64,000 nucleotides of DNA from Amycolatopsis lexingtonensis. Its GTDB lineage: Bacteria > Actinomycetota > Actinomycetes > Mycobacteriales > Pseudonocardiaceae. The stretch's first letter is position 1, and every line of letters begins with the position of its first letter. The translations under genes were made by a program, and so were the position numbers. The notes under the pieces are model-generated. The model saw nothing but the letters and a program-made list of their open reading frames with translations, searched no databases and was not told the origin of the DNA. Shown piece by piece: positions 27,108 to 30,085 of the stretch. The stretch is taken from positions 4,714,501 to 4,778,500 of the forward strand of contig NZ_JADBEG010000001.1 in the NCBI RefSeq assembly GCF_014873755.1, written 5' to 3'.

Positions 27108-27142
27108 CCGCATAGTGAGGGCAGTCGAAAAGGAGGCTGCCT

Positions 27143-28579
27143 TTGATCCGGGTGGACGGCCGGACCCTGCGCTGCGCGGACGTCGTGACGGCGGCGCGCA
27201 CCGAGGGCCCGCTGGGCATCGACGTCTCGATCGCCGCGCAGCGCGCGGCCGAGCACGCGTGGAAGCTCGCGGAAGACCTGAGCACGCGCCGCGTGGTCTA
27301 CGGCCGGACCACCGGCGTCGGGGCCAACAAGGACGACACCGTCGAGAGCTCGCGGGAACACGGGCTGCGCCTGCTGCGCAGCCACGCGGGCGGCAGCGGT
27401 GACGTGCTGCCACCCGGGCAGGTCCGGGCGATGATGCTGATCCGGCTGAACCAGCTGCTCTCCGGGCGGTCCGGGATCAGCCCCGAGCTGATCGGCGCGC
27501 TGGCCGAAGCGGTCCGCACCGGCGCGCTGCCGCTGGTGCACCGGCTCGGCGCGATCGGCACCGGCGACCTCGCGCCCCTGGCCGAGACCGCGCTGGCGCT
27601 CACCGGTGAACGGCCCTGGGTGACCGGGCACGTGCCGCCGGTCCCGGTGCACGCCGGCGACGCGCTGGCGTTCATGAGCAGCAACGCCGCGACGCTCGCC
27701 GAGGCCACCCTCGCCGCGATGCGGCTGGACGCGCTGACCCGGGCGAGCCACGCCGTCGCGGCGCTGACGTACGTCGCGCTCGACGGCAACCCCGAGGCCT
27801 ACGCGACGCCGGTGCACGAAGCGCGCCCGCACGCGGGGCAGGTCGCCTGCGCCGCGGAAATGCGGCGGCTGCTGGGCATGCACCAGACGCCGAAGCCGGG
27901 GCGCCGGATCCAGGACCCGTTCGGGCTGCGGGCTTTTCCGCAGGTCCAGGGCCCGGCGCTGGACGCGATCCACTACCTGCGGGACGTCCTCGCCGTCGAG
28001 ATCAACGCGAGCACCGAGAACCCGATGATCTCCACGGTGCACGGCGACGCCTACCACCACGCGCACTTCCACACGGCGTACGTGTCGACGGCGCTGGACC
28101 AGGCCCGCGCGACCGTGCACCAGGTGGCGGAGCTTTCGGTGGCGCGGCTGGGCGACCTGGTGGAGCCGGAGTTCACCGGGCTGCGGCCGTTCCTCGCGGC
28201 GGGCCCGGCGGGCAGCTCGGGCGTGATGATCCTCGAGTACGTGGCGCACGACGCGCTGACCGAGCTGCGGCAGGCGGCGCTCCCGGCGACGCTCGGCACG
28301 GCCGTGGTGTCCCGCGGCATCGAGGACCACGCGAGCTTCTCGACGCAGGCGGCCCGCGCGGCGACCGCGGCGTGCGCGGCCTACCAGCAGGTGCTCGCCT
28401 GCGAGCTGGTGGCGGCGGTCCGGGCGCTGCGGATGCGCGAGGCGGACCTGGTGGACCTGCCGGTGCGCGACGCCTTCGAGATGGCGTCCGAGGTGCTGGA
28501 CGAGAGCGTCGACGACCGGCCGCTCACCGACGACATCGCCGCGGCGGTCGGCGTCCTGGACCGGCTGGCCCGGATCTAG
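27143..28579 (+). CDS. HAL/PAL superfamily protein lacking the MIO tripeptide
   Basis: A 478-residue homologue of histidine/phenylalanine ammonia-lyases: Tyr53 in YGRTTGVG, the STENP motif at about 290, and VSRGIEDHASF near the C-terminal active site are recognisable. The Ala-Ser-Gly that cyclises to the MIO electrophile is absent: where GSVGASGDLAPL is expected the protein reads GAIGTGDLAPL (Thr140-Gly141), one residue shorter. The catalytic Tyr of QDPYSLR is Phe260 (QDPFGLR), and the NGT segment is changed. Classical ammonia elimination therefore looks impossible; another reaction or a binding role is likely. TTG start with AAGGAGG six bases upstream. Confidence 0.8.
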   Translation: MIRVDGRTLRCADVVTAARTEGPLGIDVSIAAQRAAEHAWKLAEDLSTRRVVYGRTTGVGANKDDTVESSREHGLRLLRSHAGGSGDVLPPGQVRAMMLIRLNQLLSGRSGISPELIGALAEAVRTGALPLVHRLGAIGTGDLAPLAETALALTGERPWVTGHVPPVPVHAGDALAFMSSNAATLAEATLAAMRLDALTRASHAVAALTYVALDGNPEAYATPVHEARPHAGQVACAAEMRRLLGMHQTPKPGRRIQDPFGLRAFPQVQGPALDAIHYLRDVLAVEINASTENPMISTVHGDAYHHAHFHTAYVSTALDQARATVHQVAELSVARLGDLVEPEFTGLRPFLAAGPAGSSGVMILEYVAHDALTELRQAALPATLGTAVVSRGIEDHASFSTQAARAATAACAAYQQVLACELVAAVRALRMREADLVDLPVRDAFEMASEVLDESVDDRPLTDDIAAAVGVLDRLARI

Positions 28580-28644: not shown

Positions 28645-29223
28645 ATGACTTCACCAGGTGAAGCCGGGGACGACGCGGACGTCATCACCGCGTCGCTCCG
28701 GCACCCCGAGCGGTTCGCGGCGGTCTTCGACCGCCACGCCCCGCACATCCATCGCTACCTCGCCCGGCGGCTCGGCGGCCAGGTCGCCGACGACCTGCTG
28801 GGCGAGACGTTCTTGATCGCCTTCGGCGGGCGCGGCCGCTACGACGCCGCGTTCCGCAGCGCGCGGCCGTGGCTCTACGGCATCGCCACCAACCTCGTCG
28901 GCCAGCGCCGCCGGGCGGAAGCCCGCGAGTACCGGCTGCGAGCCAGTCTCGGGCCACCCGACGAGGAGGTCTCCCACGCGGACCGGGTCGCCGAGCGGGT
29001 GACGGCGCAGGCGATGAACGCACGGCTGGCCGGGGCCCTGGCCGGACTGGCTCGCGGAGACCGCGACGTGCTGCTGCTGATCGCCTGGGAAGGCCTGGCC
29101 TACGAGGAGGTCGCGGCGGCGCTGGGGATCCCGGTCGGCACCGTCCGGTCGCGCCTGAACCGGGCTCGCAGGAAAGTCCGCGCGGAACTCGCGCCCGCCG
29201 AGGAGGTCTCGAACCATGGATGA
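28645..29223 (+). CDS. ECF RNA polymerase sigma factor
   Basis: A 192-residue sigma-70 factor of the extracytoplasmic-function class. Region 2 runs from about 28 to 95 (FAAVFDRHAPHIHRYLARRLGGQVADDLLGETFLIAF, ARPWLYGIATNLVGQRRR), region 4 from about 128 to 180 (LARGDRDVLLLIAWEGLAYEEVAAALGIPVGTVRSRLNRARRK). Its last eight bases overlap the start of the CU044_5270 family gene, the usual pairing, so that protein may restrain it. Targets are unknown. Confidence 0.92.
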   Translation: MTSPGEAGDDADVITASLRHPERFAAVFDRHAPHIHRYLARRLGGQVADDLLGETFLIAFGGRGRYDAAFRSARPWLYGIATNLVGQRRRAEAREYRLRASLGPPDEEVSHADRVAERVTAQAMNARLAGALAGLARGDRDVLLLIAWEGLAYEEVAAALGIPVGTVRSRLNRARRKVRAELAPAEEVSNHG

Positions 29224-30085
29224 GATGCAGCTGCTGCGCGACTTCGCCGGACCGGCGCAGCTCCCGGCGCGCGACGACCTGGCCCGTGCCCGGGCGGAGT
29301 TGGCCGCCGCCACGGCGCGACGGCCGGCCCGGCGCTGGGTGTGGGGCTCGGTCGCCGCGGCCGGGCTCGCCGCAGCCGCCACCGCCGTCTTCACGCTCAC
29401 CCCGACCACCCCGACCGCGCCACCGGCCCCGCGCGCGGCCGACGGCCCCGTGGACATCCTGTACCGGGCCGCCGCGGCGGCCCGTGCCCTGCCGGACGTC
29501 GAGCCGCGGCCGGACCAGTTCCTCTACACCAGGACGCGGCTCGCGGACGGCCGGGAGAACGAGTTCTGGGCGTCGGCGGACGGAACCCGCGACGGGTTCG
29601 AGGTCCTCTTCGGCCACGAAACGGAGATCGCGGGCTGCCGCGACGGGAAGCGCGTGCAGAAGGAAGGCCGCGGGCGAACGGTGACCAGCCGGTGCGAGCC
29701 GCGTCCGGCCGCCCACCCGGACCTGCCGACGGACGCCGACGCCATGCTCGCCTACCTGCACAAGAGCACGTACGGCGAGGGCGACACCCTGCACGACCTC
29801 GGCACCGAGGTCGTGGACCTGGCCGGCGGCTACCTGCGGCCGGCGGCGCGGGCCGCGCTCTACGAGGCGATGGCGAAGGTGCCCGGGCTGGTCGCCCGCA
29901 CCGACGCGAAGGACGCCGCGGGCCGGCCGGTCCTCGGCATCACCTGGAACAGCACGACCGAGCACGGCATCGGCAACCAGGACGAGTTCCTGTTCGACCC
30001 GGTCACCTTCACCTACGTCGGCTCCGGGACGACCGGCGCGGTGGTGAGCCAGGGCATCGTCGACGAAGTGCGGCAGCGCCCCTGA
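29216..30085 (+). CDS. CU044_5270 family membrane protein, putative sigma-factor partner
   Basis: A 289-residue protein with a cytoplasmic N-terminal part of about 40 residues, one membrane segment at about 42-64 (VWGSVAAAGLAAAATAVFTL) and a long extracytoplasmic domain. The arrangement directly after an ECF sigma gene, with translational overlap, is typical of CU044_5270 proteins, which are thought to act as anti-sigma or sensor partners; there is no recognisable zinc anti-sigma motif. A perfect 21-base-arm hairpin follows five bases after the stop. Confidence 0.8.
   Translation: MDEMQLLRDFAGPAQLPARDDLARARAELAAATARRPARRWVWGSVAAAGLAAAATAVFTLTPTTPTAPPAPRAADGPVDILYRAAAAARALPDVEPRPDQFLYTRTRLADGRENEFWASADGTRDGFEVLFGHETEIAGCRDGKRVQKEGRGRTVTSRCEPRPAAHPDLPTDADAMLAYLHKSTYGEGDTLHDLGTEVVDLAGGYLRPAARAALYEAMAKVPGLVARTDAKDAAGRPVLGITWNSTTEHGIGNQDEFLFDPVTFTYVGSGTTGAVVSQGIVDEVRQRP

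Follow-up and report, generated by a model that had tools for sequence, protein, structure and literature searches.

In actinobacteria, a dioxygenase and a metal-dependent desulfinase reportedly convert ergothioneine into hercynine (N-alpha-trimethylhistidine), and to our knowledge no lyase step has been known as part of this dioxygenase pathway. A lyase that releases trimethylamine, ergothionase, is known from Treponema denticola; it is described as MIO-less and forms thiourocanate. No description of a hercynine lyase or of hercynine degradation was found in the literature searched, where hercynine, lyase and urocanate together gave no match, although key subscription journals lay outside this search and such a description may be in print. 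The term 'ergothionase' is absent from PMC9002059, which deals with the evolution of MIO enzymes. In PMC11818489, trimethylamine formation is attributed to 'ergothioneine dioxygenase'; this attribution was left out of the argument here.

The window analysed, a stretch of 64,000 nucleotides from Amycolatopsis lexingtonensis, carries a gene that we assign with high confidence to the MIO-less lyases of the ergothionase clade. With less assurance, we regard its product as probably an ergothionase-type, MIO-independent lyase which converts a histidine betaine, with hercynine as the best guess, to urocanate and trimethylamine. Our argument starts from the sequence, from the clade shared with ergothionase and from the linkage, in other genomes, to urocanase and other Hut genes and to a dioxygenase relative; from these we infer the substrate, the mechanism and an activity common to the Amycolatopsis copy and its pathway-linked relatives.

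Coding sequence and active-site residues

Together with the length and the ribosome-binding site AGGAGG listed in Table 1, the GC content of 0.77, 0.51 and 0.97 at codon positions 1, 2 and 3 of the open reading frame bears out the first-pass annotation, which had noted a normal gene length, a strong ribosome site and clean coding. The protein matches PF00221 with 372.5 bits (cut-off 27.3), as expected for the HAL/PAL/TAL fold, and scores 285.8 bits against TIGR01225 (hutH), far under the cut-off of 539.15 for a HutH equivalog. An AF2 model was obtained with a pLDDT of 90 and a pTM of 0.91. Three PF00221 genes are present in the Amycolatopsis genome, namely canonical HutH (L001), the window lyase and a very divergent third gene (L003, G000:C1:6875335-6876633) with the loop GLGSSGEIIPL.

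Table 1. Position in the window, strand and properties of the lyase gene and its features.
Feature	Position	Strand	Remarks
MIO-less HAL-fold lyase, coding sequence	27143..28579	+	478 aa, TTG start
Ribosome-binding site AGGAGG	27131..27136	+	6 bases 5' of the start codon
Tyr53 (= HAL Tyr53)	27299..27301	+	invariant in 25 aligned members
His81 (= HAL His83)	27383..27385	+	invariant in 25 aligned members
Loop GAIGTGD, residues 136-142	27548..27568	+	replaces G-S-V-G-A-S-G-D, shorter by one residue
Ser179-Ser180-Asn181	27677..27685	+	Asn-Gly-Thr in HAL, Ser-Cys-Asn in ergothionase
QDPFGLR, residues 257-263	27911..27931	+	Gln257 and Arg263 invariant in 25 aligned members; Phe260 variable
Glu394 (= HAL Glu414)	28322..28324	+	invariant in 25 aligned members

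The segment GAIGTGDLAPL occupies residues 136-146, with the codons of Thr140 at 27560-27562 and of Gly141 at 27563-27565, as had been claimed. Across 70 aligned family members, the column of the MIO-forming Ser is a gap in 37/37 rows of the clade treated below, compared with Ser in 16/16 HutH-type rows; one residue is indeed missing, and the window lyase has neither Ala-Ser-Gly nor any other X-Ser-Gly tripeptide in this place. It also lacks the Asn of the NGT motif of MIO-dependent ammonia-lyases: the altered segment reads SSN at 179-181, and the position of HAL Asn195 is Ser in 37/37 clade rows and Asn in 16/16 HutH-type rows. The MIO loop and this adjoining Asn are the largest changes of the pocket relative to HAL. 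MIO is not to be expected, in agreement with the first-pass annotation.

If the alignment gap is placed before it, Gly139-Thr140-Gly141 aligns with Ala-Ser-Gly, which would suit a histidine ammonia-lyase with an altered prosthetic group made from Gly-Thr-Gly, or with none at all. We consider such an enzyme very improbable, since Thr gives way to Ile in L038 (loop GIGD), ergothionase-type relatives have Ala or Glu in its place, a number of members carry Ala or Ser instead of Gly141 (GTAD in L026 and L042), and all clade rows have Ser for HAL Asn195. Because Thr varies among members, a Thr-derived MIO, and likewise any prosthetic group built from Thr140, appears unlikely from sequence comparison.

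Homologues were taken as the best 120 of at least 3408 proteins with E ≤ 0.001, the 7995 best candidates having been scored; with the window lyase this gave 121 sequences, one of them N-terminally truncated. Within this set the loop reads IGTGD in 119 sequences and IGTSD in 2 (P0074 and P0112), and SSNA is kept in 121/121. A pseudogene, or a sequencing error concealing Ala-Ser-Gly, is ruled out by this conservation. The TG loop had been expected to go together with Phe at the site of the catalytic Tyr; the loop is shared, and Phe260 is present in the window lyase, but Phe is not defining, as 69 of the 121 sequences have Tyr and 52 have Phe, and further members carry Leu or Val after QDP. The gene was found in 24 of 39 relatives (19/23 of the same genus and 5/16 of the same order, the window's own genome excluded) and, phylum-wide, in 10 of 296 genomes besides the window's own, with identities of 41-56% and three partial or split matches.

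Tyr53, the STENP motif and EDH are retained as previously noted. Phe309 is, like Tyr53, His81, Gln257, Arg263 and Glu394, invariant among the 25 aligned members. The equivalent of Tyr53 presumably has a catalytic role in HAL, and we take His81 and Glu394 to correspond to HAL His83 and Glu414, both facing the imidazole side of the pocket; the position of Glu394 is Gln in the three TAL/PAL-like paralogues shown. The invariance of these active-site residues speaks for an enzyme and against the binding role that had been considered for this protein.

Clade and structural relatives

In the 70-row tree, the homologues that share this loop group in a single clade (support 100/100). The first-pass annotation had suggested looking for such a clade, which was found, and for a conserved globin and ECF sigma neighbourhood to go with it, which was not; it had also overlooked ergothionase, a known enzyme with the same fold and the same loop that is described as MIO-less. 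Together with ergothionase (PDB 6s7j) and three relatives, the clade makes up 41 rows, which a single branch (100/99.7) separates from the 29 other rows and thereby from the MIO enzymes. An earlier quick tree that included L003 supported the grouping with 6s7j only weakly (66).

With the AF2 model as Foldseek query, 6s7j took ranks 1-3 among the PDB matches, HAL ranked lower, and HAL, TAM and PAL structures were matched as well. By VIA-align, 6s7j was tied with tyrosine aminomutase and HAL, which was counted against the proposed reading. Both the window lyase and 6s7j combine the short IGxxD loop with the Asn of SxN; this Asn was seen in 34/37 clade rows and in 4/4 rows of the ergothionase type, among them one with VGN and one with TTN. 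NCBIfam searches with the window protein and three relatives hit no ergothionase model.

MIO-less loops of other kinds were also encountered. In all 120 alpha-proteobacterial homologues listed (P0122-P0241), GSVGYL stands in place of GSVGASGDL, and one such lyase (L177:3971-5464) adjoins a glycine-betaine-type ABC transporter. On a plasmid of Sodalis praecaptivus, a lyase with a GSVGYL-type loop (L175:3839-5368), perhaps acting on another substrate, forms a row with genes for an ABC importer, a CoA transferase, a 3-hydroxyacyl-CoA dehydrogenase and an enoyl-CoA hydratase. The lyases of Martelella (L178:3947-5458), whose neighbours are hutC and a gene for a glycine-betaine binding protein, and Pseudonocardia (L167) have the loop GSIGAADL and were grouped (99/97) near ergothionase. 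That the MIO-less lyases all go back to one origin seems unlikely, as the GSVGYL group is placed away from the clade on the tree.

Gene neighbourhoods

A truncated haemoglobin gene is located upstream of the window lyase as reported, its open reading frame ending 35 bases before the lyase. Globin adjoins the lyase in 15/25 same-genus loci (13/22 if three contig pairs of identical length are each counted once) but in 0/9 loci outside the genus, and an ECF sigma gene is near in 2/25 and 0/9 loci, respectively. As these neighbours are lineage-limited, a functional unit with globin or ECF sigma was rejected. At 28645-30085 the window contains genes for an ECF sigma factor and, after it, a CU044_5270-family protein, perhaps a recent insertion. 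A non-catalytic binding or regulatory protein, possibly globin-linked as the first-pass annotation had proposed, would agree with the lost MIO motif and with the adjacency seen within the genus. We give it hardly any weight, given the conserved active site, the missing globin in 9/9 loci outside the genus and the fact that ergothionase, the nearest MIO-less relative described, is itself an enzyme.

Lyase loci were compared for the best 80 of at least 579 relatives from genome contigs, 40 of them from Streptomyces. Neighbour families were assigned from single representatives and flank lengths were unequal, so that the counts among these 80 loci are lower bounds: an RpiR-type regulator was present in at least 40, an OpuA-type ATPase with binding protein in at least 37 (5 genera), HutU in at least 28 (6 genera), an allantoate-amidohydrolase-like gene in at least 24, HutF in at least 11, and HutI, gltD and an ergothioneine-dioxygenase-like gene in at least 6 each, with a desulfinase-like gene in at least 5. 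The gltD neighbour was left as local synteny and not taken as a functional partner; in L070, L071, L073 and L074, gltB-gltD immediately precedes the lyase and shares its strand. None of the 13 neighbour genes sought was found in 21 of these 80 loci, the six Amycolatopsis loci included. Such loci would suit a MIO-less lyase that acts on a different aromatic amino acid, N-methylated or quaternary (dimethylhistidine, N-methylhistidine or a betaine of Phe or Tyr), as would the Sodalis relative with its different MIO-less loop beside CoA-transferase and beta-oxidation-type genes, which suggests that MIO-less lines may serve other substrates. For the clade studied here this is nevertheless rather unlikely, as the HAL-type residues of the imidazole side, His81 and Glu394, are invariant and the linkage to HutU recurs in six genera.

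For 28 lyase genomes, hand-picked rather than randomly sampled and including that of the window, the positions of pathway genes were determined. Each genome has exactly one urocanase match (one a fragment). In 11/28 genomes it is no more than 10 kb away from the MIO-less lyase, and 9 of these have no HutH within 10 kb; the urocanase is near HutH only in 14/28 and near neither in 3/28, different contigs being counted as not near. The chance of finding it within 10 kb is about 0.002 for one gene in a 9 Mb genome. Canonical HutH scored over the cut-off in 27/28 genomes, the 28th having a fragment at a contig edge, and, in another count, was found in 15 of 16 lyase genomes. The exception was G335 (Actinomycetospora termitidis, L083/L158), where hutU, hutF, hutI and the MIO-less lyase lie together and canonical HutH was not found. 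Since urocanase is linked to the lyase and canonical HutH is also present, the lyase would seem to open a second route into urocanate. G335 would also fit a histidine lyase, the reading with an altered or absent prosthetic group mentioned above, against which the retention of HutH in nearly all lyase genomes argues further. EgtD-family proteins were detected in 22/28 genomes, including that of the window. Their absence from 6/28 and the case of G335 were counted against hercynine as the substrate. In Amycolatopsis, the lyase locus has no linked pathway gene and the urocanase of the genome adjoins canonical HutH.

A cysteine-dioxygenase-like neighbour in L140 matched PDB 8qfl/8qfr, entitled ergothioneine dioxygenase of Thermocatellispora tengchongensis, with 274 bits by sequence and 67-74% identity in the Foldseek rows; the identification rests on the 274 bits, the poor model of this protein (pLDDT 47) having served only to read the PDB titles. 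Close relatives of this dioxygenase (≥59%) occur in 7/28 lyase genomes, and in 6 of the 7 an MIO-less lyase is no more than 5 kb away. The desulfinase-like gene was found in 8/28 and lies within 5 kb in 6 of the 8, and both genes are within 5 kb of an MIO-less lyase in 6/28. On the other hand, a close dioxygenase is absent from 21/28 lyase genomes, which counts against the hercynine reading. The desulfinase-like protein of L140 starts with the metal-site signature DVHQH and is weakly amidohydrolase-like; its identity is weak, with a best PDB match at E 0.004, an Amidohydro_2 match in L099 and no Pfam match in L089. NCBIfam models gave no match to the dioxygenase or desulfinase-like proteins tried.

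Some loci show the linkage most clearly. L200, L201 and L202 contain importer, lyase, dioxygenase, desulfinase-like gene and LacI; across L203 and L204 together, HutH-HutU-AAH-HutF-HutI is followed by importer, lyase, RpiR, LacI, desulfinase-like gene and dioxygenase; and L199 contains RpiR, HutH, importer, lyase, AAH, HutU, HutF and HutI. Nonomuraea guangzhouensis (G338) has, in addition to the lyase in its hut/importer locus (L131), a second MIO-less lyase (GAIGTGD) by LacI, desulfinase-like and dioxygenase-like genes (L205).

That the lyase is a true ergothionase, removing trimethylamine from ergothioneine or its oxidised forms to yield thiourocanate, is a doubtful alternative. Ergothionase is its closest solved structure and clade partner, GVGxN is common to both, and the best PDB match of the one linked binding protein searched was EgtUC, which binds ergothioneine. 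However, thiourocanate hydratase (NF058530) was over the cut-off in 0/28 lyase genomes, that of the window included, and the single urocanase that adjoins the lyase of L131 scored as a true hutU (897 bits, cut-off 375, versus 654 bits for thiourocanate hydratase, below its cut-off of 930). Furthermore, the dioxygenase relative and the desulfinase-like gene found close to the lyase would act on ergothioneine first.

The importer as proof of a betaine substrate was weakened by a control comparison, and the substrate assignment does not depend on it. Among 15 genomes, a complete OpuA-type importer was present in 5/15 HutH-centred and 4/15 lyase-centred loci, and the binding proteins of both kinds of loci intermingle in a 23-row tree. 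As the same family also lies near HutH, it does not show that the substrate is a betaine, and the OpuA-type importer may serve histidine uptake. The dioxygenase and desulfinase-like genes were in neither the HutH-centred nor the lyase-centred loci of these 15 genomes.

Proposed reaction and comparison with known systems

For the pathway-linked relatives, conversion of hercynine to urocanate and trimethylamine thus seems to us the probable reaction. Arg263 would hold the substrate carboxylate, His81 and Glu394 would hold the imidazole and Tyr53 would take the beta proton, while trimethylamine would leave unaided, the quaternary ammonium already being a good leaving group. Having no lone pair, a quaternary ammonium would not attack MIO, and this inability to add to MIO would explain its loss. 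The urocanate formed would feed the Hut pathway. The same reaction is somewhat less probable for the Amycolatopsis copy: its genome has no desulfinase-like match at E ≤ 1e-15 and a best dioxygenase relative of only 35%, so the substrate there is extrapolated from the relatives. Chances are about even, in our estimate, that the clade is a hercynine trimethylamine-lyase which joins the dioxygenase/desulfinase route to histidine utilisation (ergothioneine to sulfinate, hercynine, urocanate and glutamate) and has lost MIO as unusable by a quaternary amine. If true, this would fill in what follows hercynine when actinobacteria break down ergothioneine, and hundreds of genes now annotated as ammonia-lyases for histidine or aromatic amino acids would have to be renamed.

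With HutH (TIGR01225, PDB 1b8f) the window lyase shares the fold and keeps the equivalents of what are presumably, in HutH numbering, Tyr53, His83, Gln277, Arg283, Phe329 and Glu414. It differs from HutH, which has the MIO tripeptide and Asn195, in having no tripeptide and Ser for Asn195, and canonical HutH usually coexists with it in the same genome. The alpha-proteobacterial GSVGYL lyases (L177, P0122-P0241), often annotated as histidine ammonia-lyase, likewise have no MIO tripeptide, but they form a separate branch (98/91), their loop is three residues shorter than that of HutH in the alignment, and unlike the window lyase clade they keep NGT in 5/6 rows. If the proposed reading holds, loss of MIO in two separate tree branches would suggest a leaving-group rule for the HAL fold, by which MIO is kept when ammonia leaves and lost with substrates that are probably betaines.

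The ergothioneine dioxygenase (8qfl), relatives of which adjoin the lyase in several genomes, is a neighbour and not a homologue of the lyase. Ergothionase (6s7j), by comparison, has the HAL fold and the one-residue-short IGxGD loop (SSIGEGDIT in 6s7j) of the window lyase, and both have SxNA for NGT, GVGxN and IEDHAS. The two are 24% identical in a structural alignment, and ergothionase has Asp where the lyase clade has Glu292.
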